A stretch of DNA of 64,000 bases from Flavivirga rizhaonensis. GTDB taxonomy: Bacteria > Bacteroidota > Bacteroidia > Flavobacteriales > Flavobacteriaceae. The notes under the pieces were generated by a model, which ran no database searches, was not told the DNA's origin, and saw only the letters and a list, made by a program, of their open reading frames with translations. A program made the translations under genes and the position numbers. Below are positions 12,378-33,674 of the stretch, one piece after another (within the stretch, counting starts at the first letter, position 1; every line of letters begins with the position of its first letter). Where the stretch lies: positions 434,001 through 498,000 of the forward strand of contig NZ_SRSO01000001.1 in NCBI RefSeq assembly GCF_004791695.1. Direction: 5' to 3'.

Positions 12378-12493
12378 ACTTTAGAGAATAAGAAATGGCT
12401 AACTAAGATTAAATATTTTCTTAAATACAAGCATTTTGTAGTAGACTATATCTTAATTAATACTTCCTTAATTCATCAATAGTATTTGCTTGT

Positions 12494-12510
12494 TCTTAAG
12501 TTTTTCTAAA
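12494..12510 (-). promoter_or_regulatory. Two-copy TTAAGA-type direct-repeat box
   Basis: In minus-strand sense TTTAGA, 5 bp, TTAAGA: the same 11-bp phasing as the boxes at 23275, 24603, 31405 and 33647. TACTATTG, one base from TAnnTTTG, lies 9 bp further on (12477-12484). Only two copies are present and the distance to the gene (about 265 bp) is large, so this is weaker than the others. Confidence 0.35.
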
Positions 12511-12694
12511 GAATCAAATAATAGTTTTATAACAAATTACTAGTTGTGTATGCTTCTAATCTAATATCGAAAGAATTATTAATTAGCATTAAATACAAAA
12601 TCTTTTGATTTATGGTTTTTAATGAAATATGCTATAGTTAAACTGATTCTTAAAAATCAAAGTATGAGATTAAGAAATAATAAAATTTAAACAG

Positions 12695-13837: not shown

Positions 13838-13865
13838 ATAATAACACTTAAGAAATTCAAATCAC

Positions 13866-17506: not shown

Positions 17507-17507
17507 A

Positions 17508-18077: not shown

Positions 18078-18078
18078 T

Positions 18079-18690: not shown

Positions 18691-20510
18691 TTGTGCGGAT
18701 GAAAGAAATACTGCTTTTTACCAGTGCTCTTACTGTGGATGCTGCCATACAGAAGCTTGGTGAACTTGGTGTTATAGATATTAAGGAAATCAGTAAACCG
18801 TCGGGTGAAGTTCTGGAACGTTGTTTAAGTGACATTGAAGACACTAAAAGAGCGATTTCAATTTTAGAAAGCCATAATATAACTAAAGATACACCTTCAA
18901 TTAATGGTTTGTATACTAATGGTAAAGACCCTAAACGCATTGTTGGGAGATTGTTGAAATCTAAAATCATTAGTCAAAATATTCAAAAAGCACTAGAAGA
19001 ATTAGATGGACAATTAGAATTTTATAAGACTTGGGGAGAAAATTTCAATAAAAATGACCTTAAACATATAGAACGGAAAGGAATTTATGTACCATTATAT
19101 TGTATAGATAAATCGTTGGTCAAGACCCTTTCAAAAGATAATACCATAATAACATTTCCTGAAAAAGAAGGGAAAGTACCAGTTGCTTTATTTTCACAGA
19201 GCGTTTCTGATAAGCTAGACTTTAAGGAAGAAGTAATTCCTGAATTATCTTATATAGTATTGGAAGAAATTAGAAAACGAAAAGAGCGACAGCTAGCTCA
19301 GGTTAATGTGTTTTTAAATAATCAAAAAGAGCACCAATCGGTTTTAGAAAGTTATCTTAAGGTATTGGAAGATCGTTTGAATTCTGAAACAGCGCTTGAA
19401 GGTATGGGAGATATTGAAGGTAAGGTAAAATATCTAAAAGGTTATTTGCCTAAAGATGCTGTAGGTGGCTTTTCAGCCACCGCTAAAGCACAACATTGGG
19501 GTTATTCAATTTCTGAGCCAAATAATGTTGATGAAGTGCCTGTATATATCAAAAATCCAAGGTGGATTAACATCATCAAGCCCATGATGAAGTTTATAGA
19601 TATTGTTCCAGGATATAAGGAAATAGATGTATCTATATACTTTCTCATTGCCTTTGCATTGTTTTTTGCTATGTTGGTTGGAGATGCTGGTTATGGTCTT
19701 ATTTTTTTAATGCTAACCATTTTATTCAGAAAAAAAATGGCATCAAAGCTACGCACACTTATTTATGTGCTTAGCAGTTCTACTATAGTTTGGGGTATAT
19801 TGAGTGGTACGTATTTTGGTGCTGAACAAATTGCACAACTACCACTCCTTAAGAACTTGGTCATTCCAAATATTGCAAGCTTTGGCGTAGACAATATTTC
19901 ATTTATGATGCACTTATCGTTTCTTATAGGTGCAATTCACCTTACCGTAGCACATGGTATTCGAGTGGTTCAATTTATAAACTCAATCAAAGCATTAAGT
20001 GAAGTTGGGTGGATATGCCTCATTTGGGGTTTATTTTTTATTACAGAACAGCTCGTTTTAGGAAATCCTGCACCAAATTGGTACAACTGGTTATTTATAG
20101 TTGGTGCTGCCTTTGTTATTTTATTTTCTAATGAAAGTACAAATTTCTTAAAGAGTATGGGCGCATCTGTTGCCAATTTACCCTTGAGTTTAATCAGTGG
20201 GTTTTCAGATATTGTTTCGTATGTACGATTGTTTGCTGTAGGAATGGCAACTGCTGCTGTAGCTTCTAGTTTTAACAATATGGCATTGCCAGATGGTGTT
20301 GTAGGTATGGGGATTTTAGATTTGGTGATGGCAGCTATAGCTTTACTTTTAGGACATACTTTAAATATAGCATTGGCTCTAATGGCAGTAATGGTTCACG
20401 GTATACGATTAAATATGCTTGAATTTGCAGGGCATTTAGGTGTACAATTTTCAGGCGAAGCCTATAAGCCATTCAAATTAATGGTTTCTGAAAACAATTT
20501 TAAAGAATAG
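18687..20510 (+). CDS. ntpI: V/A-type ATPase membrane subunit I (a subunit)
   Basis: 607 residues. The cytoplasmic N-terminal half (about 1-300) has two coiled-coil arms; the C-terminal half has about seven or eight membrane segments starting near 315 (ISIYFLIAFALFFAMLVGDAGYG). The hallmark FALFFAMLVGDAGYGLI and the late segment with the essential arginine (SYVRLFAVGMATAAVASSF) are both present, so the ion half-channels look intact. Overlaps ntpD by 4 nt; followed after 50 nt by ntpK. Links the peripheral stalk to the ring and conducts ions. Confidence 0.95.
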   Translation: MIVRMKEILLFTSALTVDAAIQKLGELGVIDIKEISKPSGEVLERCLSDIEDTKRAISILESHNITKDTPSINGLYTNGKDPKRIVGRLLKSKIISQNIQKALEELDGQLEFYKTWGENFNKNDLKHIERKGIYVPLYCIDKSLVKTLSKDNTIITFPEKEGKVPVALFSQSVSDKLDFKEEVIPELSYIVLEEIRKRKERQLAQVNVFLNNQKEHQSVLESYLKVLEDRLNSETALEGMGDIEGKVKYLKGYLPKDAVGGFSATAKAQHWGYSISEPNNVDEVPVYIKNPRWINIIKPMMKFIDIVPGYKEIDVSIYFLIAFALFFAMLVGDAGYGLIFLMLTILFRKKMASKLRTLIYVLSSSTIVWGILSGTYFGAEQIAQLPLLKNLVIPNIASFGVDNISFMMHLSFLIGAIHLTVAHGIRVVQFINSIKALSEVGWICLIWGLFFITEQLVLGNPAPNWYNWLFIVGAAFVILFSNESTNFLKSMGASVANLPLSLISGFSDIVSYVRLFAVGMATAAVASSFNNMALPDGVVGMGILDLVMAAIALLLGHTLNIALALMAVMVHGIRLNMLEFAGHLGVQFSGEAYKPFKLMVSENNFKE

Positions 20511-20560
20511 TAAAAAGAATATAATAATAAAAACAAGAACATTTCAAAAACAATATAACT

Positions 20561-21031
20561 ATGGGATTTTTAGCATTTATTGAAACAACAGTACAAGGTT
20601 TGGGAGATATGGGAATGTCTTTGAGTATTGCCGCTATTGGTTCTGCAATAGGAACAGGAATTGCAGGAATGGCCGCCATTGGTGCCTGGAAAAAAATGAT
20701 AACTAGCGGACAGAAAGCAGCAACCGCACTACTTATTTTTGTTGGAGCACCCCTATCTCAAGTTATATATGGTATGATACTTAAAAATGCCATTGCTGAT
20801 GCTAATCTTAGTCCAGATTCCTATGTATGGCAAATAATCATTGGTCTTTTTGCTGGTGCTGCTATGGCAGGTTCAGCCATTTTTCAAGGGAAAGCTGGGG
20901 CAAGAGCTTGTGATGCCATTGCTTCTGGTGCTAACGATACAGCCAAATATATCATGATTATTGGCGTGGTAGAAACCGTTGCCCTTTTTGTGATGATATT
21001 TACAATGACTGGGTTACCAATAGTTCAATAA
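20561..21031 (+). CDS. ntpK: V/A-type ATPase ring subunit K (c subunit), duplicated hairpin
   Basis: 156 residues with four membrane segments, i.e. the fused double-hairpin proteolipid. The ion-binding carboxylate is Glu138 in the fourth segment (IGVVETVALF); the matching place in the first hairpin is filled by Gln67. Compared from memory with Enterococcus hirae NtpK, the sodium ligands Thr64, Gln65, Gln110 and Glu139 correspond to Ser66, Gln67 (LSQVIYG), Gln109 (FQGKAGA) and Glu138. This suggests sodium rather than proton coupling. Last gene of the operon. Confidence 0.93.
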   Translation: MGFLAFIETTVQGLGDMGMSLSIAAIGSAIGTGIAGMAAIGAWKKMITSGQKAATALLIFVGAPLSQVIYGMILKNAIADANLSPDSYVWQIIIGLFAGAAMAGSAIFQGKAGARACDAIASGANDTAKYIMIIGVVETVALFVMIFTMTGLPIVQ

Positions 21032-21110
21032 AAAATGATGCCATGTTTTTTGATCCTACATAGAATTAAGGAAGTGACTTGATAAAAGTCATAGTTTAAT
21101 AGCTGTTTTC

Positions 21111-21130
21111 TGTAAAACTTTGTAAAACTA
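21111..21130 (+). repeat. Tandem 10-bp repeat before response regulator 1
   Basis: TGTAAAACTT followed directly by TGTAAAACTA, ending 9 nt before the ATG at 21140. It could be an operator or a leader element affecting translation. It does not match the TTAAGA-type boxes found elsewhere in the island. Confidence 0.4.
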
Positions 21131-21139
21131 AATAGTATT

Positions 21140-21814
21140 ATGAAAATACTGGTTATAGAAGATAACGTAGAACTACTTAAAGATATCAAGAACTTTTTAG
21201 AAGATCAAGGTAACATCTGCGAGATTGCTTCAGACTACCAATCGGCTTTAATGAAGGCTGTTATCTTTCCTTATGATATTTTAGTTGTTGATATTATGTT
21301 ACCCGACGGAACGGGACTTGATATAATTAAGGAAGTTAAGAAAGAGAATATTGATGTAGGCATAATTATCATTTCCGCTAAAAATGCCGTTGGAGATAAA
21401 GTGAACGGATTAGAAATAGGAGCTGATGATTATTTGACTAAACCGTTTTATCTTGCAGAACTTAACGCTAGAATTAAGGCACTTTACAGAAGGAAAGCTT
21501 ATAAAGGTAGCAAAGAAATAATCTTTAATGAAATTAAAATAAGACCAGAAAATCATGAAATTTTTGTAAACGATCGTTTGATGAGCCTCACCAAAAAAGA
21601 GTTTGACATCATTCATTTTTTTGTAGCGAACAGAAACAGATTATTAACAAAAGAAGCTATCGCCGAACATCTTTGGGGTGACCATATCGAAATGGCTGAT
21701 TCTTTTAATTTTATTTATACACATTTGGCTAATTTGAGAAAAAAAATAACCAAGTTTGGAGGGAAAGACTATATTAAGTCTATTTACAGTGTAGGATATA
21801 AATTCAGTGACTAA
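21140..21814 (+). CDS. OmpR-family response regulator (system 1)
   Basis: 224 residues. Receiver domain 1-120 with acidic pocket (IEDN), phospho-acceptor Asp51 (VVDIMLPDG) and Lys in TKPF. C-terminal winged helix from about 130, with SLTKKEFDIIHFF, the recognition region DSFNFIYTHLANLRKK and the closing GYKFSD. Clear paralogue of the regulator at 32928-33608. Followed 1 nt later by its kinase. By analogy with neighbours it should bind tandem direct repeats at 11-bp spacing, and the box before the PAP2 gene at 23370 is a candidate target. Confidence 0.93.
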   Translation: MKILVIEDNVELLKDIKNFLEDQGNICEIASDYQSALMKAVIFPYDILVVDIMLPDGTGLDIIKEVKKENIDVGIIIISAKNAVGDKVNGLEIGADDYLTKPFYLAELNARIKALYRRKAYKGSKEIIFNEIKIRPENHEIFVNDRLMSLTKKEFDIIHFFVANRNRLLTKEAIAEHLWGDHIEMADSFNFIYTHLANLRKKITKFGGKDYIKSIYSVGYKFSD

Positions 21815-21815
21815 A

Positions 21816-23069
21816 ATGAATTTAGTAAACAGAACCAATAAGTACTACTTAATATTTTTCATATTTCTTTTTCCACTCATGGTTGCGGTAGATTATTACC
21901 TCATCAAGTATGTTGTAAACAAGGAGGTAGATGAGATATTGATACACGAAAGTGAACGTATTACTTTTAGTTTAAATGAAAATGGAGAACTCCCATCTTC
22001 TAGCTATTTATTGTCCATAACTCCCATTGATAAGGACTTTCCTGTTTTAAATAATAAATCGAGAGACACGCTGATTTATCAAGCCTATAAAGATAAACTA
22101 GTACCGCATCGTACTTATGATTTTGGGGCTAAAATAAATTCGAAAAAAGTAAAGATATCGTTAAAGCATGCTCTTTTAGAGATGAATAAATTGATTATAT
22201 GGCTTTTTGTTACAACTACATTGATTATTTTATTACTTGTAGTGGGACTGTTTCTTATCAATCAAGGCATATATAAATGGGCTTGGAAACCTTTTTTTGA
22301 AAACTTATCAAAACTTACTAATTACGACGTTACTAAAAAAAGCCCAGTGCAACTTGAAAATTCCAGTATTGCTGAATTTCAAGAGCTTAATCAAATTGTT
22401 ACAGTTTTAATGGATCAAGTGAGGAAAGATTTTCAGAACCTTAAAGAATTCAACGAGAATATTTCTCATGAAATCCAAACCCCTCTTGCCATTATACGCA
22501 ACAAAATGGTGCTTCTTCTAGAAAGTCAAAATCTTAATAAAAAAGAACTTCAATGGGTACAGACCGTTTATCAAGAAGCCAATAAGCTATCAAAAATTGG
22601 GAAGTCTTTGACCTTGATTTCTAGAATAGAAAATCAAGAATTTACGAGATTGGATAATGTTGATGTTCGAGCTGTTGTAGAAAATATTGTTAGTAATATG
22701 GAAGAAATGATTGCATTCAAAGATCTCAAAATGGATGTTAAATTAAATCCCGTTACGATGAAATGTGATCTCATTTTGATAAACATCCTCTTAACTAACT
22801 TAATTAAAAATGCTATACAACATAACCATGAAAGAGGCTCTATTAAAATCTTGTTGAATGAAAAGAAATTCGAAATTGTAAACACAGGTAAGGTTTCTAA
22901 AGTAGAAACTGCACAGTTATTTAATCGCTTCCAAAGAGGAGATAAAACAAAAGAATCATTAGGGTTAGGTTTAGCTATCAATAAAAAAATATGTGAACTT
23001 TATGGATTTCAACTTGACTATGGCTATCATGACGAAAAGCATAAACTTTCTTTGGGTTTTAACAAATAA
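21816..23069 (+). CDS. Sensor histidine kinase (system 1)
   Basis: 417 residues from the ATG at 21816, one base after the regulator stop. A GTG at 21807 would add three codons, but the ATG gives the same length as the paralogue at 31671-32924. Two membrane segments (about 10-35 and 130-155) enclose a small periplasmic sensor domain of roughly 95 residues. Then come a HAMP-like linker, the phospho-acceptor His218 (NISHEIQTPLA), an N box (LLTNLIKNAIQHN) and a G box (KESLGLGLAINKKICE). The signal sensed is not evident; the location suggests envelope stress or cationic peptides. Confidence 0.92.
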   Translation: MNLVNRTNKYYLIFFIFLFPLMVAVDYYLIKYVVNKEVDEILIHESERITFSLNENGELPSSSYLLSITPIDKDFPVLNNKSRDTLIYQAYKDKLVPHRTYDFGAKINSKKVKISLKHALLEMNKLIIWLFVTTTLIILLLVVGLFLINQGIYKWAWKPFFENLSKLTNYDVTKKSPVQLENSSIAEFQELNQIVTVLMDQVRKDFQNLKEFNENISHEIQTPLAIIRNKMVLLLESQNLNKKELQWVQTVYQEANKLSKIGKSLTLISRIENQEFTRLDNVDVRAVVENIVSNMEEMIAFKDLKMDVKLNPVTMKCDLILINILLTNLIKNAIQHNHERGSIKILLNEKKFEIVNTGKVSKVETAQLFNRFQRGDKTKESLGLGLAINKKICELYGFQLDYGYHDEKHKLSLGFNK

Positions 23070-23274: not shown

Positions 23275-23302
23275 TTAAGAATTGCTTTAGAAGCATTTAA
23301 GA
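23275..23302 (+). promoter_or_regulatory. Three-copy TTAAGA-type box before PAP2 gene 1
   Basis: TTAAGA (23275-23280), TTTAGA (23286-23291) and TTAAGA (23297-23302), each 11 bp apart and facing the gene. Typical layout for an OmpR/PhoP-family regulator. The downstream edge is 67 nt before the ATG at 23370. A TATTGC motif follows at 23313, a poor -7 match. This is the only signal in the otherwise empty 300-bp gap 23070-23369. Confidence 0.6.
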
Positions 23303-23369
23303 TTAGCTTCAATATTGCTAAAGAATAATCTTAGAATGCACTTATACATTCGTTTTAAAATCGAATGTT

Positions 23370-24134
23370 ATGAGTTATATAAGAATAATTACTTTAGTTA
23401 TAAGTGTATTTACTTTTCCTGCTTTAAATAGTCAAATAATTTTATTAGATAAAAAACACTTAAAAAAAGAGAAAAGCTTATTGCAAAAAAGTATTTTACC
23501 TGTAAGCATTATAATAAGTGGAGCGGCATTAAGTAAGAGTTTTTTTGAAAAAAACCTACAAAAGGATATTAGAAAATTTGCAGGTAATAATTTTCACTCA
23601 TCAATAGAAGACTACACGCGTTACGCACCTATTATTGAATTGTACGCAGCAGATATTCTTAATATAAAAGCTAAGAATCACTGGTTTGATCAAACAAAAA
23701 ATTTAACCATGTCTATCTTAATAACAGATTTTATAACTTATAAATTAAAAAGAGGAATAAAAAAGGAAAGACCAGGCAGTACTATAACACATCCTTCATA
23801 CGAATCTTTTCCTTCTGGGCATACATCTTTTGCTTTTGCAAATGCTTCAGTACTATATCAGGAATTTAAAGACTCTAATAAAATCTTGGCATATAGTGGC
23901 TATGCCTTTGCTATAACAACAGGTTCTTTTAGAATGCTTAATAATGCACATTATCTTTCTGATGTGTTAGTAGGAGCTGGAATTGCAATTTTGGTCACAG
24001 AACTTATATATCATTTTGAGCCTATTAAGTGGAATCCTTTTAAAAAGAAGGAAAATATTACCTTTGTACCAAAAATAGGAAGAGACGATTTTGGTAAAGA
24101 AAACTATGGCTTATATTTTAATATTCGTTTTTAA
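23370..24134 (+). CDS. PAP2-family phosphatase, periplasmic (LpxF-like candidate 1)
   Basis: 254 residues with an N-terminal signal or anchor (MSYIRIITLVISVFTFPALNS). All three acid-phosphatase motifs are present: KRGIKKERP, FPSGHTSFAFA and SFRMLNNAHYLSDVLVG with catalytic histidines. Family members remove phosphate from lipids such as lipid A, undecaprenyl pyrophosphate or phosphatidate. In Bacteroidota, PAP2 enzymes of the LpxF type dephosphorylate lipid A and give resistance to cationic peptides. It follows the first two-component system and has a three-copy regulator box in front. Substrate not proven. Confidence 0.85.
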   Translation: MSYIRIITLVISVFTFPALNSQIILLDKKHLKKEKSLLQKSILPVSIIISGAALSKSFFEKNLQKDIRKFAGNNFHSSIEDYTRYAPIIELYAADILNIKAKNHWFDQTKNLTMSILITDFITYKLKRGIKKERPGSTITHPSYESFPSGHTSFAFANASVLYQEFKDSNKILAYSGYAFAITTGSFRMLNNAHYLSDVLVGAGIAILVTELIYHFEPIKWNPFKKKENITFVPKIGRDDFGKENYGLYFNIRF

Positions 24135-24146
24135 ATTTGGGTTAAA

Positions 24147-24571
24147 CTAATCTTCAGCCCCATTTATATATTCTTTAACAACATGACCTTCTTTGTCATA
24201 GAGACCTTCAATTTCTGTTCTAACTCAATTTCGTAAAATTCTCGTTCATTTGGCTCGATAAACTCCACTTCATTAACATCATATTTATCATAGCAAGTTT
24301 GCAAATTTTTCAGAATAATTAGAGGTAGATTGTTCCTGTCAATTTCATGTTCAGTTTCTATCCAACTTCCTTGTTCATCAAAGGTTGATGAATATTTTTG
24401 GTAATTTTTATTAAAGTCAACTTCCCATATACCATTTTCATATGCCCATTTTAGATTTTTTGCTTCAGAAAACTTTGTTGCAAAAGCTTTTTTTACTAGT
24501 TCTGGTATATCTTTTTGTTTTTGACAACAAAATAGCAAACTAAGAATAATAAAAAGTATATAATTTTTCAC
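24147..24571 (-). pseudogene. PepSY-like lipoprotein with a C-terminal frameshift
   Basis: The ATG at 24571 opens a frame of 135 residues ending at 24164. It has a lipobox (LSLLFCCQK) and the PepSY-like (DUF2874-type) pattern VKKAFATKFSEAKNLKWAYE ... FDEQGSW. Near 24229-24232 the family pattern jumps frame. As read, the end is KLKVSMTKKVMLLKNI, whereas the next frame continues RTEIEGLYDKEGHVVKEYI and stops at 24147, which fits the expected YEIE...G.YDKEGHVVKEY ending. The span 24147-24571 is 425 nt, one short of whole codons, consistent with a one-base deletion or a sequencing error. Such periplasmic proteins often sit beside two-component systems. It may still work if the last strand is dispensable. 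Confidence 0.75.
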
Positions 24572-24585
24572 ACATTAAATTTTAT

Positions 24586-24630
24586 CAAACCTAATCACTA
24601 ATTCTAAAATTACTTTTAAGTAAATCTAAA
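24586..24630 (-). promoter_or_regulatory. Promoter with three-copy TTAAGA-type box for the PepSY-like gene
   Basis: In minus sense TTTAGA, TTAAAA and TTTAGA at 11-bp spacing (24603-24630), then 9 bp, then an exact TAGGTTTG -7 element (24586-24593), 14 nt before the ATG at 24571. The spacer between the two nearest hexamers (GTAAT) is identical to that in front of PAP2 gene 2. The box also lies 59 bp from the diverging TonB-receptor start. Confidence 0.65.
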
Positions 24631-24689
24631 ACCATAAAAGTTTCATTAAATTTAGGCATAAGTTTATATTTAGAAACTTATAAATATTA

Positions 24690-27536
24690 ATGAAAAACAT
24701 TTTAATTATTATAGTATTGTTAATACGTTCGGCTTCCATGGCGCAAGGAAGTATGATACAAGGTCGGGTTATTGATGATAACGGAATTAACATTTCTGGA
24801 GCTATAGTGGTTATAGAAAGTATTAATAGGCAAACTTCAACAGACATTCAAGGAAACTTTTTTCTTTTAGATTTACATGAGGGAAACTATATACTAAAAA
24901 TCTATTATTCAGGATATAAAACACTAGAAAAAGAAATAAAGCTTGAAGAGAATCATAGAAATATTGAAATTTTCACATTAACTACAAATAGTGTTTTGTT
25001 GGAAGATGTAGTTTTAAATGTTTATTTAAATGATAATCGTTTAAGAGACATTAATTCACAAAAGAATAAAGCGAATATCACAAATGTTGTATCAATAGAC
25101 CAAACAGGTAAATTTCCTGATGCGAATATAGGAGATGCTTTAAAAAGAATTTCGGGAATTAGCATGCAGGTAAAAGAGGGAGAAGCACAGGACATAATAA
25201 TAAGAGGACTCGCACCCGAGCTAAATTCTGTTACTATAAATGGTAGTAGAGCTCCTTCTACAAATGGTGATAATAGAAGTGTTCAATTAGATGTTATTCC
25301 TACAGATATGATTGAGTCTATAGAAGTGACTAAAGCTCTTACGCCCGATATGGAAGCTGATGCATTGGGCGGATCTGTAAATTTAATTACCAGAACGGCA
25401 CCACAAGGATTTAGGCTTTCTACGACATTAGGCTCAGGAATTAATTTAATTTCTAACAAACGTATTTGGAATACTAATTTCTTAATAGGTAACCGATCTA
25501 AAAATAAAAAATTTGGTTGGATGATTTCGGCTACTGTGAATGATAATGATTATGGATCGCATAGTATTGAAGCTGAATGGAGCAATATTTTTGAGTATAA
25601 TACCGGAAGTACAAATATGCAGGGCGAAGCAATTATAGAAGAAGTAGATGTTTCCCCATATACAAATACACTATTAGAACAAACATTTTTTTTACAAAGA
25701 GTTCGCCGTAGTCTTGCTGCAAACTTTGAGTATATGTTTAATAATAACCACACCATATTTTTAAAGTCTTTTTTAAATTGGAGAGATGACAGAGAAAATA
25801 GGTTTGTCTTTGAGAGCGAAATATTGAATCCAATTGATATAGCACAGGAAAATTTTACTTTAAACGGAACCAATCTTATAGATTTTCCAGTTGAAATTAG
25901 CAGGCAAACCATTGGAGGAGCAAATAGTAGTAGTAGCAAAAATGGGCGTTTAGAAGTTAAAAGACTGCAAAACTTTAGTATAGGAGGGACTCATTTATTT
26001 AAAAATGTAAAAACAGATTGGTTAGCTTCATTTGCTGATGCTTCAGAAAAAGTTAACGAACGATTAGCTGAATATAAATCTGAATACAATGTATTTAACG
26101 ATATTTCAAATACTCGATTTCCTTTTTTAAGACCACTGGACTTAGATGATGCAAATAATTTATCAAATTTTGAATTTGAAGAAATAGTAGAAGAAGTACT
26201 ATTTAATGAAGAAGAGGACTTTAATTTCTTGATCAATACTGAAATACCATCAAATATATTGGGGTTTAATAATGGTACCATAAAATTTGGTCTTAAAAAT
26301 AGATTTAAGTATAAAGCAAGAAATAATGATTTTACGTTTTTTAATTTTGAAGACGAATACCCAACCTTAGGCGATGTTCCTGTAACGAATTATTCAGATC
26401 CCGATTTTTTAGTTGGTGAAAAATATAAATCTGGCTTTTTTACAGATAAGAAGTGGTTGAGTGGTTTGAATTTGATTAATGGTGAAACCATAGGAGAAGA
26501 GTTTTTAAGACAACATTATTCGATTAAAGAAAATGTCTTTGCCAGTTATATGATGCTTAATGAAAAAATAAAAGATAAACTACATGTGGTTGCTGGAGTT
26601 AGGTTGGAACATACAAATATTAAAGCGAAAGCAAATAATATTGAGAATCCAGATAACTTTAATAGGATTACTAATGAGAAATCGTACACAAACATATTGC
26701 CTGGAATTCATTTAAAATATAATTTTTATAAACAATCAATTATAAAATTTGCTTGGACTAATACTTTGGCAAGGCCTAATTATGTCGATTTAGTTCCAAC
26801 ATTAGAGATTGTGTTGGCAGATGAAGAAATTATACTTGGTAACCCAGCTTTAGATGCAACGACCTCTATGAATTTTGATATTTCGGTAGAACATTATTTT
26901 AAATCTTTTGGAATTATTTCTGCAGGTCTTTTTTACAAAAATATTAAGGGTTTTATCTATACTTTTAAAAGTGAAACCACAGATGATAGATTTGGTGCAG
27001 GAACCAGTGGGTTTACAACATTTAAGCCACTTAATGGTGATAGCGCATCTCTTTTTGGTACAGAAATTGCTTTTCAAAAAGGACTTTCTTTTTTGCCTGG
27101 ATTTGCCAAAAACTTTAATGTCAATATTAATTATACTTACATAGATTCTAATGCAAATGGAATAAGAAATTCCAAAGGGGAGGAGCGAGATGATTTAAAC
27201 CTTCCTAATACTGCCAGACATACTTTAAATACAGCTTTAGGTTATGATGATAAGAATTTAAGTACCCGATTAGCTTTAAACTTTTCTGACAGATATATTG
27301 AAAATATAGGAGGCAATAGCTTTGAAGATATTTATTATGACAAACAACTATTTTTAGATTTTAACATAAATTATGTATTAAAAAAACATTTAAGCATTTA
27401 TGTTGCAGTAAATAATATAACAAATCAACCGCTTCGATTATATCAGGGGACATCCGCAAGAACAGCACAAGCTGAGTATTATGATAGAAGGTTTGCTTTT
27501 GGGTTAAAATATGACCTCTTTAAAAAACAAAAATAA
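24690..27536 (+). CDS. TonB-dependent outer-membrane receptor
   Basis: 948 residues. Signal peptide ending near MAQG, a CarboxypepD_reg-like domain (IQGRVIDDNGINISGAIVVI, about 22-105), a plug domain (about 120-240: GDALKRISGISMQVKEGE, DIIIRGLAPELNSVTINGS, ALGGSVNLITRTA) and a long beta barrel ending in RRFAFGLKYDLF. The form resembles the Caulobacter/Xanthomonas-type carbohydrate or metal receptors rather than SusC; no SusD partner follows. It diverges from the PepSY-like gene, with the regulator box between them, so it could belong to the same regulon. Its end is one base from the converging ArnT-like gene. Ligand unknown. Confidence 0.9.
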   Translation: MKNILIIIVLLIRSASMAQGSMIQGRVIDDNGINISGAIVVIESINRQTSTDIQGNFFLLDLHEGNYILKIYYSGYKTLEKEIKLEENHRNIEIFTLTTNSVLLEDVVLNVYLNDNRLRDINSQKNKANITNVVSIDQTGKFPDANIGDALKRISGISMQVKEGEAQDIIIRGLAPELNSVTINGSRAPSTNGDNRSVQLDVIPTDMIESIEVTKALTPDMEADALGGSVNLITRTAPQGFRLSTTLGSGINLISNKRIWNTNFLIGNRSKNKKFGWMISATVNDNDYGSHSIEAEWSNIFEYNTGSTNMQGEAIIEEVDVSPYTNTLLEQTFFLQRVRRSLAANFEYMFNNNHTIFLKSFLNWRDDRENRFVFESEILNPIDIAQENFTLNGTNLIDFPVEISRQTIGGANSSSSKNGRLEVKRLQNFSIGGTHLFKNVKTDWLASFADASEKVNERLAEYKSEYNVFNDISNTRFPFLRPLDLDDANNLSNFEFEEIVEEVLFNEEEDFNFLINTEIPSNILGFNNGTIKFGLKNRFKYKARNNDFTFFNFEDEYPTLGDVPVTNYSDPDFLVGEKYKSGFFTDKKWLSGLNLINGETIGEEFLRQHYSIKENVFASYMMLNEKIKDKLHVVAGVRLEHTNIKAKANNIENPDNFNRITNEKSYTNILPGIHLKYNFYKQSIIKFAWTNTLARPNYVDLVPTLEIVLADEEIILGNPALDATTSMNFDISVEHYFKSFGIISAGLFYKNIKGFIYTFKSETTDDRFGAGTSGFTTFKPLNGDSASLFGTEIAFQKGLSFLPGFAKNFNVNINYTYIDSNANGIRNSKGEERDDLNLPNTARHTLNTALGYDDKNLSTRLALNFSDRYIENIGGNSFEDIYYDKQLFLDFNINYVLKKHLSIYVAVNNITNQPLRLYQGTSARTAQAEYYDRRFAFGLKYDLFKKQK

Positions 27537-27537
27537 T

Positions 27538-28950
27538 TTATTGATGAGAATAGATACTTTTGTATTTATTAGACTGTATTTTTTTTAACTTAGTTTTTTG
27601 CTCATTTTTTAATGTAAGTGTGTCACGGTGCGAAATAAGTATTAAAAAAGGAGTTCTTATTTGCAATGCTTCATTGAATTGATTTGAAGTCATTAATTTA
27701 ATTTTACCATTTGAATAAAATCCGCTAGAATAACTTTTCTTATGCAAATGATAAATTGGAATACCTTCAATGGTTTTATTTTTCAACAAATATTTGTCGG
27801 TTTTACTATAAAACTCTAGACTTTTATTCTGAAGAGAGATAGAAAATAAAATAACTGCAATTACTGGTATCATTAAACTGGTTATTAAATAAGTTTTTTG
27901 CCATTTTATGGATCTCCACCAGAAAACAATCAACAATGCTAACGGGATCATAACAGGCATAATGTATGGATGGATTAAACTTTTGGAAAGGGTAAAGAAA
28001 AAGGGTGTCCATAAGAGCCATAAAATGAGGAACAATAACCATTTGTTTGTTTTTAGATTAAGTCGCACATTCCATACTTTTTTAATAACTAAGGTAATCC
28101 ACGGAAGTGTAAATAAAATAAGGAATACCCAAATCATACCTATAGGTTGAGATTTTGGAAAACCGTATTTATCACCGCTCCAGCTAGAATCTAAAAAACG
28201 TTTAAAGTGCTCTCCCACTATGAAATAGTCCCAAAAACCAGGAGTAGCTTTTTCTGCAAGATAATACCAGGGAACACTTATTATGCCTATAATAAGTATT
28301 CCTATTAACCAAGGCATTTTAGTTATTACTTTTATATGATCTTTAAAAAACAACAGCCAGAGAAACAGTGGAGGCAAAGTTAAAATTATGATGATAGGAC
28401 CTTTTGCCAGTAGTCCTAATCCTATTCCTATAAAGAATAAATAATTCCAAGCAGTTCTTTTTTCAGTGTTACTACTTTCCCAAAAAGAAAGCATAGTTAG
28501 CACAATGCAAAAACAAAGTGACATGTCTGTAGAGACAACACCAGTGTGTAATAAAAACTCAGGAATAGTTAATAGAATAAAGGCAGGTAAAAAGAAAGGT
28601 AGCCCTTGCTGCCTAGAATATTTACCAATCACAAAAAATATTAAAATGGCAAATATTAAAGAAGGTAACCTGACCGCAAATTCTGTTACCCCAAAAAGAT
28701 TTATACTAAAAGCAGATAGCCAGGTTGATAGAGGCGGTTTAGCCCAAAAAGGAATGTTATAATCGATTTGTAACGTTACCCAATGATTAGTCTCGGACAT
28801 TATTCGGGCAATCTCGGCATATCGAGCCTCGGTTTTATCCATTAGAGGAAGAGCAGTATTTATAAAAACCCTTATTATTAATAAAACCAATATGCTTAAC
28901 AAATAAAATATAGGCTTGTTTAAAGCATGCTTTGAAGAACTGCCTTCCAT
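27538..28950 (-). CDS. ArnT-like glycosyltransferase (GT83/PMT superfamily), integral membrane
   Basis: 470 residues with a dozen or so hydrophobic segments. The N-terminal signature LPLMDKTEARYAEIAR with the acidic pair, then FWAKPPLSTWLSAFS and EFAVRLPSL, matches ArnT, which moves 4-amino-4-deoxy-L-arabinose from undecaprenyl phosphate to lipid A. It is shorter than ArnT (about 550) at the periplasmic C-terminus, so the sugar may differ. The ATG overlaps the end of the GT2 gene by 31 nt; no closer start exists before the conserved motif. Last gene of the second two-component operon. The GT2 next door could make its lipid-linked donor. Confidence 0.85.
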   Translation of the reverse strand: MEGSSSKHALNKPIFYLLSILVLLIIRVFINTALPLMDKTEARYAEIARIMSETNHWVTLQIDYNIPFWAKPPLSTWLSAFSINLFGVTEFAVRLPSLIFAILIFFVIGKYSRQQGLPFFLPAFILLTIPEFLLHTGVVSTDMSLCFCIVLTMLSFWESSNTEKRTAWNYLFFIGIGLGLLAKGPIIIILTLPPLFLWLLFFKDHIKVITKMPWLIGILIIGIISVPWYYLAEKATPGFWDYFIVGEHFKRFLDSSWSGDKYGFPKSQPIGMIWVFLILFTLPWITLVIKKVWNVRLNLKTNKWLLFLILWLLWTPFFFTLSKSLIHPYIMPVMIPLALLIVFWWRSIKWQKTYLITSLMIPVIAVILFSISLQNKSLEFYSKTDKYLLKNKTIEGIPIYHLHKKSYSSGFYSNGKIKLMTSNQFNEALQIRTPFLILISHRDTLTLKNEQKTKLKKIQSNKYKSIYSHQ

Positions 28951-29714
28951 GAGGTTTTTGTTTGTGTTTTATACTTTTTTGAGATTAATATAAGGTCGTA
29001 CCAAAGTGTAAAGAAATAAGATATCTTGACTTTAGAATTGCTAGTGTCTATCCATGACTCTAAAGGGATTTCTTTTACAGTGTGTTTAATACTATTTTTG
29101 CCTATTAGCTGAATTAAACGATGAAATAGCTCAACATCAAATAACCATTTTGAAAGAAATCTTTCTTTAAACAATTGCCTGGCTAAATCTGCTCTAAATA
29201 CCTTACAACCACACTGTGAGTCATAAATAGAAAGTTCTAATTGCATAGAAATTAAGGTAGCAATAAGCCGTCCAATAAAAAACCTAAACAACTTTCTATT
29301 AATAATATTATCTATTTTAGATATTCTTGACCCAAAAACAAATAAAACCTTGGTGTCTATAAGTTTACTTAATTTTAAGCATTCATCTAAAGTTGTCGAT
29401 AAATCCGCATCCAAATAAGCAATTTTACTAAACCTTAAGTGCTTTTCTGCAAATAGAAACCCCGAACGAACTGCTGCTGCCTTCCCTCTATTTGTTTTTA
29501 AGTTATTAATAAAAACATGGTTAGTAGCTCCCGCTTTTATTTTTTGAAGTACTTTAAGTGTATTATCGCGAGAGCCATCATTAGAAAAAACAATAGCTAC
29601 ATTATTATTCTCCTGTAAGAAAGAATGGAATACCTCCGTTTGTAGCCTTCCAAATTCATTATAACAAGGAATAACTAGTAACAAAGAAAAATTTGTATGA
29701 TTATAATGATTCAT
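28920..29714 (-). CDS. Family 2 glycosyltransferase (polyprenyl-phosphate sugar synthase-like)
   Basis: 264 residues, no membrane anchor obvious. GT-A fold signs: start LLLVIPCYNEFGRLQTEV, FSNDGSRDNTLKVL, NRGKAAAVRSGF and the metal-binding AYLDADLSTTLDECLKL. The pattern is that of dolichyl/undecaprenyl-phosphate glucosyl- or mannosyltransferases (Alg5/DPM class), which load a sugar onto the lipid carrier used by ArnT-like enzymes. This gives a plausible two-step pathway with the overlapping downstream gene. Starts 7 nt after the GT9 gene. Confidence 0.85.
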   Translation of the reverse strand: MNHYNHTNFSLLLVIPCYNEFGRLQTEVFHSFLQENNNVAIVFSNDGSRDNTLKVLQKIKAGATNHVFINNLKTNRGKAAAVRSGFLFAEKHLRFSKIAYLDADLSTTLDECLKLSKLIDTKVLFVFGSRISKIDNIINRKLFRFFIGRLIATLISMQLELSIYDSQCGCKVFRADLARQLFKERFLSKWLFDVELFHRLIQLIGKNSIKHTVKEIPLESWIDTSNSKVKISYFFTLWYDLILISKKYKTQTKTSWKAVLQSML

Positions 29715-29721
29715 AAAATAG

Positions 29722-30801
29722 TTAAACGGCTAGTTTTTTTACTGGATTTAAACTATTTTTTATTTTTTTAATAATATCTTCTGTTGATTCAATGTTTGTA
29801 TTGACAGCAGTACTATTATTACTATAAGGATAGTATCTTTTTATATCAGAAACAGAGAACAAACCAATGGTTGTGGTTTGTGATGCAGATGCTAAATGCA
29901 TAATACCGCTATCTGCACCAATAAAAATTTCTGTGTTAGCAATTACAGCAGCTATTTCTCGGATATCCTTACTGTAAAATGAAGGTGCCTTAAATTGAAT
30001 CTGGGAGACATTTTCTACAGGTAAAATTTCAAGAATATTATATTCATTAAATTCGGCTTTTAATTTTTCATAAAAAGGAAGCCACCAAGATTCACTGTAG
30101 CACTTTTCATCAGTAGCATAAGTAAATATGCTAATGCTTTTATTTTTTTTGTTAGTAGCCAATTTGTCTACAATTTTTTTTCCATGATTTATTTCTGCAG
30201 GATCAAGCTTTATATCTAATGAAGGAATAACTTCTTTACTTTTATTACCAAAAAGGGTTAGGTATTCCCTTAACAAATAGATCTGTTCTTTTGCAATATG
30301 ATTTTCAGTTTTATGTATAAGGCGCTTATTTTCATCAGGATTACCTATTATTTTATGCCTTGAGGATGATAATAGAGTGAATAACCTCCCTGAGGATGAA
30401 TCGCTTACCCCATTAATAGCTATATCGTAATTTTTTTTTCTTAAAGACATACACCTTTTTATATATTGTAATGGGTATTTAAAAGGTCTTTTTGGTAGTT
30501 GGATAATCTTATCTACATTATTGTAATTTTTAAAAATAATAGGAGATAAATCACCATTTACAATTAAATCAACTTTACAATTTGGAAATGTTGAAATAAC
30601 TTCCTTTACCAAAGGAGAAGTAAGTAGTTGATTGCCTAACCTATGGTTTGGTCTACAAATTAGTATGTTTTTTATTTCATTTACATTTATGCTGTCACCT
30701 TTTTTTGAAACCTTAGTGTTAGAAATGTTTTTGGTGATAGCATGCATGAATTTCCTCTTGTAAACATTTATTCTTTTTAAAAACTTTTTACGCTGATTCA
30801 T
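29722..30801 (-). CDS. Family 9 glycosyltransferase (heptosyltransferase-like)
   Basis: 359 residues. GT-B fold of the WaaC/WaaF/RfaF type: IKNILICRPNHRLGNQLLTSPLVKE at about residue 45, and the donor-binding region IFIGADSGIMHLASASQTTTIGLF near 295-318. Such enzymes add heptose or other sugars to the LPS inner core on the cytoplasmic face. A basic N-terminal extension of about 40 residues precedes the core fold. Its ATG overlaps the stop of PAP2 gene 2 by one base (TAATG), a sign of translational coupling. Confidence 0.85.
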   Translation of the reverse strand: MNQRKKFLKRINVYKRKFMHAITKNISNTKVSKKGDSINVNEIKNILICRPNHRLGNQLLTSPLVKEVISTFPNCKVDLIVNGDLSPIIFKNYNNVDKIIQLPKRPFKYPLQYIKRCMSLRKKNYDIAINGVSDSSSGRLFTLLSSSRHKIIGNPDENKRLIHKTENHIAKEQIYLLREYLTLFGNKSKEVIPSLDIKLDPAEINHGKKIVDKLATNKKNKSISIFTYATDEKCYSESWWLPFYEKLKAEFNEYNILEILPVENVSQIQFKAPSFYSKDIREIAAVIANTEIFIGADSGIMHLASASQTTTIGLFSVSDIKRYYPYSNNSTAVNTNIESTEDIIKKIKNSLNPVKKLAV

Positions 30802-31367
30802 TAAAATTTATATTTGAAACCTATGAGGTAATTATTGTTATTATTTAAAAAAGAGAGGTTGAGTTTTTTCTTTTGATAAGGTGTTGTAAACAAGTAAGAA
30901 CTACCAATACCAATAAAAGCACCAACAAGTATATCCCAGAAGTCATGTTTTTTAGCATGTATCCTGCTAAAAGCTGTGAATCCAGCTAAAGCATAAAAAG
31001 GGATACTTTTTTTAAAGCCGTATCTTTTATGAATAAATGAAGCTGCTTGGAAAGTAACAGATGTATGACCCGAAGGAAATGAGTTTTCGTTGCTGGCGTC
31101 TGGTCTTGATTTGTTAATCGTTAACTTTAGGCCATAAGTAATGATACTTGAAAGGGTGACACTTTTGGTGAATTGACAACTTCCTTCGCTATCATCAAAT
31201 AACAAAGTTGCTGCAACTGTAGCAACAGGAGCAGTAAATAGTATAACATCTCCTGTAGTTTCTATAGTTTTGTTTTGTGAAAACGAATAGAAACAATTAA
31301 CAAGTAGAGTTATTAATAGCCAAATTGTTGTGAAAGAATCATACGTATGTTTTAAGACTGGCAGCAT
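30801..31367 (-). CDS. PAP2-family phosphatase (LpxF-like candidate 2)
   Basis: 188 residues, smaller than the copy at 23370. Motifs: KLTINKSRP, FPSGHTSVTFQAA and FSRIHAKKHDFWDILVG, all catalytic residues kept, plus several hydrophobic segments and a signal-anchor near 15-30. Likely dephosphorylates a lipid such as lipid A or an undecaprenyl carrier on the periplasmic side. It has its own upstream box and -7 element although it lies inside the regulator-kinase operon, so it may be boosted separately. It is coupled to the LPS-type glycosyltransferase genes that follow. Confidence 0.85.
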   Translation of the reverse strand: MLPVLKHTYDSFTTIWLLITLLVNCFYSFSQNKTIETTGDVILFTAPVATVAATLLFDDSEGSCQFTKSVTLSSIITYGLKLTINKSRPDASNENSFPSGHTSVTFQAASFIHKRYGFKKSIPFYALAGFTAFSRIHAKKHDFWDILVGAFIGIGSSYLFTTPYQKKKLNLSFLNNNNNYLIGFKYKF

Positions 31368-31387
31368 CTGGTTTTTCTAATGAATCG

Positions 31388-31432
31388 CCAAAGTAGATGC
31401 AGAATCTTAAATTACTCTTAAGAGAAGTTTAA
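31388..31432 (-). promoter_or_regulatory. Internal promoter with three-copy TTAAGA-type box before PAP2 gene 2
   Basis: In minus sense TTAAAC, TTAAGA and TTAAGA at 11-bp spacing (31405-31432). Nine bp downstream lies TACTTTGG (31388-31395), a -7-like TA-n-TTTG, then the ATG at 31367. The two nearest hexamers are exact copies of those before response regulator 2, and the spacer differs by one base (GTAAT against GTAAC). Confidence 0.65.
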
Positions 31433-31464
31433 GAAGATCTATAGTTAAATGTTGGTAGAAATGA

Positions 31465-31671
31465 TTAACCTTCTAAGATCTTTTGAGAACTAGGGCATGT
31501 AGTATTACCATAAGAACAGAAAATACAACAGCTACCCTCAAGCGGTCTCAATATTTTTTTGCAATTATTGCATTCGTGTATAAAATGAATACTGGTTTCG
31601 GACATTTTTATATTCATTTTATGATTACAATAAGGACAAGAAATAGTTGTTTCTAATAGTATAGGCATCAT
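31465..31671 (-). CDS. Small cysteine-rich zinc-ribbon protein, GDCCVxC-like
   Basis: 68 residues with four Cys pairs: CPYC, CNNC, the GSCCIFCSYG motif and a final CP. This resembles the GDCCVxC domain family, in which the first Cys of the motif may be selenocysteine in some species; here the motif is GSCCIFC with ordinary cysteines. The two CxxC pairs probably bind zinc. The ATG at 31671 overlaps the stop of the kinase gene by one base, with an alternative ATG one codon later. Function unknown; family members often occur near metal or envelope genes. Confidence 0.7.
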   Translation of the reverse strand: MMPILLETTISCPYCNHKMNIKMSETSIHFIHECNNCKKILRPLEGSCCIFCSYGNTTCPSSQKILEG

Positions 31672-32924
31672 TAGTTAAAAGTTAATTTAAAAACATGCAT
31701 ATTATTGCTAAATGTGTAGCTAATGGTATAACCATAATTATCACAAATTTTCTTAACGATAGCCAGTCCAAGGCCAAGAGATTTTTTGGTTGTATTCTCT
31801 TTATAAAATCGATCGTATAATTTTTCAGGATTTTTAATAGCCGCTTCTCCAGAGTTTGAAACTATAAATTCATTAGTAGTGGTTTTTATAATAATCTCTC
31901 CTTCAGAAGACGTGTATTTTATAGCATTTGATAATAAATTATCAGCAATTATTCCTGCTAAATATGGATCACCATTAATTTCAAGGGGCTCCATTTCTCT
32001 CGTTAGAATAGGAACCTTATTTAATCCTTCAAAAGATTCTATAGATTTTTTTAGAATATTGGTGAAATTAATCTGATTAGAGGTTTTAAATTGTTGATTT
32101 TCAATTTTTGCTAATAGAATTAATTTTTTATTAAGTGTCGCTAGCCTGCGGGCATTATTAGATATTTCTATTAAAAGGTTGTACTGTTTTTCATTAATTT
32201 GATTCTCATCAAATAAATTACCAATCTTAGCTTGAATATTAGCTAAGGGAGTTTGGATTTCATGAGAGACATCTTCTGTAAATTGTTTTAAATTTTGGTA
32301 GTCTGAAATAACTTTATTCGTTAATGTTTTTATTTCTGTATTTAATTCGGAAAACTCTTCTATATCTGTTTCTTCCAGATTGATAGCTTTGTTAGATTGT
32401 ATAGAAAACGTTTTTATTTTTTTAAGGTTATTAAAAAAAGGCTTCCAAACTAATGCGGTGTTTTTTCTGCTTAAATAATACTGTGCCAGAAATACTGTTA
32501 GAAGAATTACGATATAAGACAAAATAATAGCTTGTAAAATATCATATAACTCAACAACCTTGGTTCTAACGGAAATTTTATACGCCCTTTCATTTATTTT
32601 TTTATATGTGATTAGCTCCATATAAGGTTCTAATTCTTCCTCTGCAGGATCATATAAAATAGTGTCTTTTATTCTCTGTGTCCCTATATATTTAACTTCT
32701 TGGGTGTTTATTATTGGATGTACATTAATAGGAACTCCTTCTTTTTCAATTAATTTTTCAATTCTAAATGCTTGTGAATTTAACGACTCTTCAGTTTCGT
32801 CTTTTATAATATACTTGGTAATAAAGTATAAAGCAATAACACTCAAAATCATTGCAAGCAAACCATAAGTCAAAAAACTTCGAGATATTTTTTTTAGTAA
32901 TTTTATTTTCTTTTTATGGTTCAT
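31671..32924 (-). CDS. Sensor histidine kinase (system 2)
   Basis: 417 residues, paralogue of the kinase at 21816 with the same length and layout. Membrane segments at about 18-40 and 128-150 bound a periplasmic domain of roughly 90 residues. Then His221 in DVSHEIQTPLANIQ, N box LLSNAIKYTS and G box KKSLGLGLAIVKKICD. It starts 3 nt after the regulator gene. The sensor domain differs from system 1 in sequence but shares the pattern RI(K)DTL(I)-Y before the second membrane segment, so the two may sense related signals. Confidence 0.92.
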   Translation of the reverse strand: MNHKKKIKLLKKISRSFLTYGLLAMILSVIALYFITKYIIKDETEESLNSQAFRIEKLIEKEGVPINVHPIINTQEVKYIGTQRIKDTILYDPAEEELEPYMELITYKKINERAYKISVRTKVVELYDILQAIILSYIVILLTVFLAQYYLSRKNTALVWKPFFNNLKKIKTFSIQSNKAINLEETDIEEFSELNTEIKTLTNKVISDYQNLKQFTEDVSHEIQTPLANIQAKIGNLFDENQINEKQYNLLIEISNNARRLATLNKKLILLAKIENQQFKTSNQINFTNILKKSIESFEGLNKVPILTREMEPLEINGDPYLAGIIADNLLSNAIKYTSSEGEIIIKTTTNEFIVSNSGEAAIKNPEKLYDRFYKENTTKKSLGLGLAIVKKICDNYGYTISYTFSNNMHVFKLTFN

Positions 32925-32927
32925 AAT

Positions 32928-33608
32928 TTACATGTCTTCATCCATAAATTTGTACCCAATTCTGTAAACTGTTCTAATATAGTTAGCAGCAACATCTGTT
33001 AGTTTTTTTCGTAAATGATTGATGTGTACATAGATGAAATCAAAACTATCAACAGTATCAATATTATCGCCCCATAGATGTTCTGCGATAACTTCTTTTG
33101 AAAGCACTCTGTTTTTATTAGTAATAAAATAAACCAGTAAATCATACTCTTTTTTAGTTAACTGTATTGGTTTTTCATTAACGTAAGCTTGCATAGCATC
33201 TGTTTTAATTTTTATTTCGTTAAAAGAGATATTGGAATCTCCATCGTATTTACCTCTTCGCATCACAGCTTTAATACGTGAATTTAGTTCTGTAAGATGA
33301 AAAGGTTTCGTTAAATAGTCATCAGCCCCTAAATCTAATCCTTCTACTTTGTCGTCAAGCGAGTTATTTGCCGAAATAATAATTACAGGAATTTTTTTGC
33401 CCTCTTTTTTTATTAGCTTTAATAAATCCAATCCATTACCGGTTATTAAATTTATATCTAAAAGAATGAGGTCGTATTCATAAATAGAAACTTTGGAGAT
33501 TGCTTCATAATAATCGGAAGCAGTTTCACATATGTGAGCATCTCTATTTAAAAATTTAATGATAGATTCTTGTAATGTTATTTCATCTTCAGCGATTAAT
33601 ATTTTCAT
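32928..33608 (-). CDS. OmpR-family response regulator (system 2)
   Basis: 226 residues. Receiver with AEDE pocket, phospho-acceptor Asp51 (LILLDINLITGNG) and TKPFHL; winged helix from about 130 with QLTKKEYDLLVYF and recognition region DSFDFIYVHINHLRKK. Nearly the same DNA-binding helix as system 1, so the two regulators may share sites. Heads the operon regulator - kinase - zinc ribbon - PAP2 - GT9 - GT2 - ArnT-like. A three-copy box lies 38 bp upstream of its start, consistent with autoregulation. Confidence 0.93.
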   Translation of the reverse strand: MKILIAEDEITLQESIIKFLNRDAHICETASDYYEAISKVSIYEYDLILLDINLITGNGLDLLKLIKKEGKKIPVIIISANNSLDDKVEGLDLGADDYLTKPFHLTELNSRIKAVMRRGKYDGDSNISFNEIKIKTDAMQAYVNEKPIQLTKKEYDLLVYFITNKNRVLSKEVIAEHLWGDNIDTVDSFDFIYVHINHLRKKLTDVAANYIRTVYRIGYKFMDEDM

Positions 33609-33630
33609 TTATTCTTTAATTGTGATTTTG

Positions 33631-33674
33631 CAAAATATATTAAGAATCTTAAGTTACTCTTAAGTACCTCTAAA
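33631..33674 (-). promoter_or_regulatory. Autoregulatory promoter with three-copy TTAAGA-type box
   Basis: In minus sense TTTAGA, TTAAGA and TTAAGA at 11-bp spacing (33647-33674), followed after 9 bp by TATTTTG, a TA-n-TTTG -7 element, then the ATG at 33608. The best-conserved copy of the island box, placed where an activator would cover the -33 region. Confidence 0.65.

Follow-up and report, generated by a model that had tools for sequence, protein, structure and literature searches.

Phased, PmrA-box-like direct repeats in an envelope gene island of Flavivirga rizhaonensis as probable operators of a response regulator

The window analysed here, a stretch of 64,000 nucleotides within the 4.91-Mb genome of Flavivirga rizhaonensis (G000:C16:434001-498000), encodes two response regulators of the OmpR/PhoB type (RR1 and RR2), each paired with a sensor histidine kinase (HK1 and HK2). 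The same region carries the PAP2 phosphatase gene PAP2a directly 3' of HK1, a PepSY-like gene, a gene for a TonB-dependent receptor, and the co-oriented genes PAP2b-GT9-GT2-PMT (Table 1). PAP2a, the PepSY-like gene, PAP2b and RR2 are preceded by arrays of TTAAGA-like hexamers, and the role of these arrays is the subject of this work. To our knowledge, little has been mapped of how Bacteroidota regulate the remodelling of their outer membrane, and a box recognisable in the sequence that comes with a named regulator, a kinase and a gene set makes this question directly testable.

The preliminary description of this DNA had reported that each array consists of three hexamers with a period of exactly 11 bp oriented towards the gene, and this was confirmed at all four places. 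The -7 element that it had noticed 9 bp downstream of three arrays is indeed present for the PepSY-like gene, PAP2b and RR2, and begins 22-29 bases before the start codon. The same three sites, and only these, share the inner spacer GTAAY, as had been noted; the consensus of the relatives presented below has a different spacer. The RR2 promoter box includes CTTAAG-AGTAA-CTTAAG, i. e. CTTAAG-N5-CTTAAG. A weighted hexamer matrix (TTWARA) fixed from the window, with a maximal three-copy score of 18, gave five matches with a score of at least 16.5 at the four places, because the palindromic CTTAAG makes the PAP2b site readable on both strands. In 100 order-2 Markov simulations, such matches occurred on average 0.02 times per window (at most once), in agreement with the earlier estimate that four arrays are unlikely to be accidental, and the other spacings (7-10 and 12-15) yielded no three-copy match in the window at this score.

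Table 1. Features of the window. Positions are numbered within the window; bits refer to the model R1 described in the text.
Feature	Position	Strand	Remarks
RR2 promoter box	33647..33674	-	TTTAGA GGTAC TTAAGA GTAAC TTAAGA; perfect genome-pattern match; 20.7 bits
-7 element, RR2 promoter	33631..33637	-	TATTTTG; 9 bp past last hexamer
PAP2b box	31405..31432	-	TTAAAC TTCTC TTAAGA GTAAT TTAAGA; 13.6 bits, 11-base insertion relative to the model
-7 element, PAP2b	31389..31395	-	TACTTTG; 9 bp past last hexamer
PepSY-like gene box	24603..24630	-	TTTAGA TTTAC TTAAAA GTAAT TTTAGA; 17.1 bits
-7 element, PepSY-like gene	24586..24593	-	TAGGTTTG; 9 bp past last hexamer
PAP2a array	23275..23302	+	TTAAGA ATTGC TTTAGA AGCAT TTAAGA; perfect pattern match; 8.9 bits; weakest site
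Box at head of Usp/V-ATPase operon	12492..12532	+	CTTAAG TTTTT CTAAAGA, 9 bp, TAGTTTT; 19.8 bits, second in window
RR2	32928..33608	-	OmpR/PhoB-type response regulator, proposed box binder
HK2	31671..32924	-	Sensor histidine kinase, PorY family (NCBIfam); ExxE after first membrane helix
PAP2b	30801..31367	-	Phosphatase; top NCBIfam match LpxE, under cut-off
GT9	29722..30801	-	Heptosyltransferase-like
GT2	28920..29714	-	Glycosyltransferase, weak ArnC match
PMT	27538..28950	-	ArnT-like transferase, under ArnT cut-off
PepSY-like protein	24164..24571	-	
PAP2a	23370..24134	+	PAP2 phosphatase
RR1	21140-21814	+	
HK1	21807-23069	+	
Presumed operon Usp-V-ATPase-RR1-HK1	12695..23069	+	Gene order same in G019 and G176

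In the complete genome, the pattern TTWAGA-N5-TTWAGA-N5-TTWAR has two perfect matches, and both lie inside the window (the RR2 and PAP2a arrays). Equal matches at unrelated positions, which the preliminary description had named as a possible objection, are few: with one mismatch, the three-copy pattern occurs at 17 places, three of them in the window, and of the 14 others eight fall within open reading frames (ORFs) and six are intergenic. Four of these six are located at most 260 bp upstream of an ORF (encoding a DUF7793 protein, a 2Fe-2S protein, a protein of no family and a CarboxypepD_reg protein), and none of these four has TAnnTTT at a distance of 9 bp. The best candidate site elsewhere in this genome is one of them, L209 (G000:C92:117315-117341, minus strand), which combines a one-mismatch array and a GTAAT spacer with TATATTTT 10 bp downstream and lies upstream of an ORF of 154 aa that matches no Pfam family.

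A lack of sites before orthologous genes, another objection named there, is likewise not observed: the sites are kept before the corresponding genes in related bacteria. We retrieved 80 loci with RR2 homologues and scanned the 34 nearest (L008-L041) with the window-fixed matrix at a threshold of 15.5. At a spacing of 11, there are 28 sites in 16 of the 34 loci, whereas the remaining spacings between 7 and 15 gave 0-6 sites each, and none of 200 column-permuted matrices reached 28 sites (mean 2.1, largest 18). In 21 of the 34 loci, the highest-scoring array at most 300 bp from the regulator gene, however low its score, begins at -61 to -65. When three-copy arrays with a score of at least 14.4 and located at most 200 bp upstream were counted by gene class in 35 loci (L008-L042), they preceded PepSY genes in 7 of 11 cases, PAP2 genes in 3 of 7, TonB receptor genes in 4 of 13, response regulator genes in 10 of 37, glycosyltransferase genes in 2 of 7, histidine kinase genes in 0 of 34 and other genes in 10 of 187.

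An ungapped alignment of 54 sites picked from the relatives (set A1), for which the filter permitted 8-11 bp to TAnnTTT, resulted in the consensus ACTTTAAAnTnTCTTTAGAATTnnnnnnTAnTTTTAT, with CTTTARA-N4-CTTTAGA-N9-TAnnTTT as the conserved unit: All 54 sites have the C before the middle hexamer and keep TAnnTTT at a distance of 9 bp, and 53 have G as base 5 of the last hexamer. A third upstream copy was found in 14 of the 54 sites (2.2 expected from shuffled rows, 2-5 in off-register controls). The conserved unit is therefore made up of two copies, with an optional third, and not of the three copies noted for the window arrays. The window boxes are mostly CTTAAGA and those of the relatives mostly CTTTARA (base 3 is T in 46 and 45 of 54 sites), and because of this difference a strict 28-mer derived from the window matched only its own genome among 199 family genomes. 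No description of this box was found in open-licence PubMed Central text, among the matches listed.

The sequence-only model R1, which was built from the 54 A1 sites and contains no window sequence, detects three of the four array sites (RR2, PepSY, PAP2b) and also matches loci outside the training set, such as L047, L051, L052 and L050, with E values as low as 1e-9. When nine relatives were scanned genome-wide, 57 R1 matches with E <= 0.02 were obtained; 41 of them, a part being training sites, are located around an RR2-type gene. In twelve stretches, 43 of 47 matches with at least 14.7 bits are located at most 260 bp upstream of a gene on the same strand; outside the training ranges this is true for 19 of 20 (background 0.143, binomial 1.5e-15). 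Moreover, the box occurs together with the regulator: in a sample of 199 family genomes, an R1 match at E <= 3e-4 is present in 16 of 17 genomes with a close RR2 homologue (at least 57% identity) as compared to 5 of 182 others (Fisher 2e-18), and with the preset cut-off for the regulator (E <= 1e-60) in 17 of 35 as compared to 4 of 164. In genomes with an RR2-like gene, or with an RR1-type gene in the case of G176, 49 of 58 R1 matches are at most 10 kb away from the regulator gene.

RR1 and RR2 both exceed the Pfam cut-offs for a receiver and for a Trans_reg_C winged-helix domain, and the nearest solved structures to RR2 are DrrD and PmrA/BasR. RR2 shares 90% identity with its counterparts in Flavivirga algicola and in an uncultured Flavobacteriaceae bacterium. 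Across the RR2 homologues of the Flavobacteriaceae, the recognition helix shows high conservation, mostly as FDFIYVHINNLRKKL; RR2 of the window and the regulators of L008 and L009 have HINHLRKK instead, and these are the loci that carry mostly CTTAAGA boxes. This may be a natural case of a regulator and its box changing together, a hypothesis only since the joint change is seen in one lineage. As stated in passages of PMC4660055, Asn188 and Asn196 of Klebsiella PmrA read bases, and Thr187, Val192 and His195 contact bases.

The closest parallels come from known two-component systems. According to part of the text of PMC3973317, PmrA half-sites are CTTAAG and XTTAAT in Salmonella and CTTAAT and CCTAAG in Klebsiella, each with 5 bp in between. 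RR2 shares with the PmrA/PmrB (BasRS) system the OmpR/PhoB type of the regulator, and its own box, CTTAAG-N5-CTTAAG, is similar to the Salmonella half-sites. There are differences, however: the consensus of the relatives is CTTTARA rather than CTTAAG, a third copy is optional, the box is coupled to a Bacteroidota -7 element, most strong matches are close to the regulator gene, and there are extra targets such as the TonB receptor, the PepSY-like protein and efflux genes. RR2 is outside the PmrA equivalog family, but it may well work like PmrA. The preliminary description had compared the arrays to the sites of PhoP, PhoB and OmpR. This comparison is valid for the regulator class and for direct repeats beside the core promoter, whereas the core of the box is PmrA-like, and nearer to the PmrA half-site than to the PhoP box. 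Both regulators are also far from the PhoP equivalog cut-off of 336 bits (NCBIfam PRK10816.1; RR2 122.2, RR1 132.9).

HK1 and HK2 (414.5 and 394 bits) are above the cut-off of 350 for the PorY family (NCBIfam NF052314), which relates them to PorXY of Porphyromonas gingivalis; unlike in that system, each PorY-family kinase here adjoins an OmpR/PhoB-type regulator. In 34 of 43 kinases, including HK1 and HK2, an E..E motif is present in residues 21-75 (a count made with no chance control), mostly directly after the first membrane helix and away from it in a few kinases. PmrB carries an ExxE motif. As far as the sections of PMC8306577 cover it, PmrA targets include eptA and arnT, RaxRH adjoins arnT, lpxE and eptA, ColRS adjoins lpxE, and the sensors carry an ExxE motif; the position of E..E in the kinases studied here is comparable to that given there for ColS and RaxH. 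The similarity to RaxRH of Xanthomonas and ColRS of Pseudomonas is one of gene neighbourhood, with a regulator beside lpxE/arnT-like genes and a sensor with a candidate ExxE motif, in another phylum and with kinases of the PorY family.

In the relatives, the boxes precede genes for TonB receptors/OMP_b-brl_3 proteins, PepSY-like proteins, PAP2 enzymes, GT2 and PMT glycosyltransferases, efflux components (OEP, HlyD, AcrB-type), DUF347 proteins, an Omp85-type protein, and a 660-aa sulfatase-fold protein followed by diacylglycerol kinase. L177, the one locus scanned for it, encodes a LAB_N (lipid A biosynthesis N-terminal) protein between GT2 and PMT (L177:13819-14445). The boxed gene set reads as one for lipid A or outer-membrane remodelling, with the substrates assigned by similarity: the PAP2 enzymes of the relatives are probably LpxE-like and the glycosyltransferases ArnC/ArnT-like. 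In the window, NCBIfam ranks LpxE first for PAP2b, and likewise ArnT for PMT and heptosyltransferase III for GT9, whereas ArnC comes third among the matches of GT2; none of these matches reaches its cut-off. A search of the F. rizhaonensis genome for the sulfatase family gave 37 matches, none of them in the window. The box may help to annotate unknown genes of the island (PepSY-like, DUF347, OMP_b-brl_3) as members of one response.

The computations show where the sites lie, that they are conserved and linked to RR2-type genes, and which domains the gene products contain. Very probably, then, the arrays are genuine operators, with RR2 as the foremost candidate for the protein that binds them. 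The preliminary description had considered one or both regulators; RR2 is the more likely one, as boxes at PAP2, PepSY and regulator genes accompany RR2 in the relatives, and RR1 goes with a different box (12492-12532) that had been overlooked. We consider it likely that the boxes are RR2 operators of a local, autoregulated regulon for envelope remodelling similar to those of PmrAB or ColRS/RaxRH, where binding, activation, the signal, lipid A as the substrate and the division of labour between RR1 and RR2 are what we infer. HK2 would phosphorylate RR2, and a dimer of RR2 would bind two head-to-tail half-sites (CTTAAGA or CTTTAGA) 11 bp apart, i. e. about one helical turn. Where there is a third copy, as is often the case here, a further RR2 subunit might occupy it. 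Between the end of the last half-site and the Bacteroidota -7 element TAnnTTT(G) there are 9 bp, and activators in contact with RNA polymerase are commonly placed in this way. We therefore expect RR2 to turn on the transcription of its own operon and of the other units of the island. The predicted targets are the LpxE-like PAP2b with the ArnC/ArnT-like glycosyltransferases, the PepSY-like protein and possibly PAP2a, and lipid A or lipopolysaccharide would be remodelled under envelope or cation stress. By analogy, activation of envelope remodelling in the manner of PmrAB and ColRS is the best reading, and the switch looks like the polymyxin-resistance switch of gut bacteria. Overall, the interpretation given in the preliminary description is supported.

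Several observations weigh against this interpretation. (i) Concerning the sites themselves, the four are not all alike as first presented: three have a -7 element and are detected by R1, but the PAP2a array has no -7 element in register and reaches 8.9 bits. Some single hexamers are imperfect (TTAAAC, TTAAAA). The window sites fit R1 poorly (8.9-20.7 bits as compared to up to 38.7 in relatives), and among the 75 R1 matches of the own genome at E <= 10, the RR2 site ranks 4th, PepSY 8th, PAP2b 20th and PAP2a last, behind the box of the V-ATPase operon as the 1st; because of these ranks, the window boxes have drifted from those of the family. The one RR2-bearing genome that was missed at E <= 3e-4 is that of the window. 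Of the best 12 matches, which were inspected, nine lie outside the window, and these nine were taken as chance matches. Eight of them overlap ORFs, two of these (L090 and L096) where an ORF ends directly before the next; L092, the sole intergenic one, has a 449-aa ORF 151 bp downstream. Among the best matches inspected, none outside the window was convincing as a site. (ii) Loose patterns are uninformative because they show little or no excess: the two-hexamer pattern with two mismatches allowed is not enriched in the window (32 as compared to 27.6 expected), and the three-copy pattern is genome-wide only modestly above the reversed control (239 versus 181). (iii) As for the regulator and the targets, RR2 and RR1 score 165.5 and 146.4 bits against the PmrA equivalog cut-off of 330 (NCBIfam PRK10643.1), PAP2b scores 50.7 bits against 177 for LpxE, and PMT scores 109.3 bits against 567 for ArnT. 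A search for PepSY-like homologues in G208 and G199, the closest two relatives, gave none. (iv) Four genomes (G076, G148, G174, G188) have an R1 match without a regulator match at E <= 1e-60. Finally, nine of the 58 R1 matches are farther than 10 kb from the regulator gene, four of them in G119 on three other contigs; strong distant matches (in G119, G037, G125, G025 and G144) suggest a dispersed regulon in some genomes.

It is tempting to extend the RR2 regulon to the whole phylum, although we regard this wider reading as tentative. RR2 and its PorY-family kinase would then be the Bacteroidota counterpart of PmrA/ColR, the operator CTTTARA-N4-CTTTAGA-N9-TAnnTTT would mark most units of a modular island, the half-site would have shifted to CTTAAGA in the Flavivirga-like lineage together with the N-to-H change in the recognition helix, and a paralogue would control a V-ATPase arm. 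In a single case from outside the phylum, the Lachnospiraceae regulator L080, CTTAGA-N5-CTTAGA is located at -64.

The V-ATPase arm concerns RR1. Its presumed operon opens with a universal stress protein (Usp) gene at 12695, followed by genes for V-type ATPase subunits (13866-21031). No box was seen directly before RR1. Two genomes, G019 (RR1 93% identical) and G176 (78%), have a box at the same place at the operon head, with 20.5 and 24.3 bits; in G019 it falls, by eye, into a part of the intergenic region that is better conserved than the rest. RR2 was found in neither of them. Since the operon-head box is kept in these two genomes that have no RR2, RR1 probably controls its own Usp/V-ATPase operon and most likely recognises a box of this kind there, which would tie a V-type ATPase operon to this kind of control. 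In the third genome of the genus, G259, neither regulator was found at the thresholds used. As described in a portion of PMC10197588, the V-type ATPase of Bacteroides fragilis is dispensable normally and essential in deoxycholate.

This raises the alternative that RR1, or both paralogues interchangeably, binds the PAP2a, PepSY and PAP2b boxes, with a shared box and cross-regulation. RR1 and RR2 are 52% identical, the box of the RR1 operon resembles that of RR2 and keeps the 9-bp distance, and PAP2a directly follows HK1. However, in G019 and G176, which have RR1 but no RR2, the V-ATPase box is the sole match with more than 11 bits, with 30 kb and 19.5 kb covered, whereas relatives with RR2 carry boxes at PAP2, PepSY and RR2, and the recognition helices of RR1 and RR2 differ. 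We therefore regard binding of these three boxes by RR1 as unlikely. An RR1-type gene was sought in five RR2 genomes, with one match each in G199, G204, G207 and G208 and two in G209. The second regulator in G209, the genome of L026, is 46% identical and lies beside a PepSY-like homologue (G209:C3:288610-289843).

That the arrays serve for repression, with bound RR2 blocking RNA polymerase in a negative autoregulation, seems improbable: the boxes abut the core promoter, as this would require, but the 9 bp to TAnnTTT in all A1 sites, in spite of the wider filter, are as expected for activator contact. It is even harder to believe that another regulator, the gene of which travels with the island, binds the boxes. 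The four genomes with an R1 match and no close regulator homologue would fit such a protein; the box precedes the response regulator gene in many relatives, however, the matches cluster around this gene, and the other island genes vary between genomes. Finally, AT-rich curved promoter DNA with an 11-bp phasing and no specific binder would suit the base composition, and phased A/T tracts can bend DNA, but with the near-invariant C and G positions, the permuted-matrix control and the linkage to one regulator gene, this was already disfavoured and is hardly credible.

Some further features are worth recording. Two-copy boxes at 12359-12385 (plus strand) and 12482-12520 (minus strand) are located between two divergent universal stress protein genes. 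G019 retains the first of the two (CTTWAGACAAACTTTAGA), and a conserved two-copy motif is seen at 12369-12385, farther upstream than the operon-head box. Past its RR1 operon, the same genome has genes for MerC, GTP cyclohydrolase I and PhoX (L171:12473-15257) in place of PAP2a and PepSY. Directly 3' of HK2 lies a small Cys-rich ORF (31490-31660, minus strand), and L008 and L009 have a 66-aa ORF at the same place. In addition, 38358-41036 encodes a protein of 892 aa that contains a long repeat of the EEARLKREADAAAAKA type, and 41130-54374 a repetitive surface-type protein of 4414 aa.

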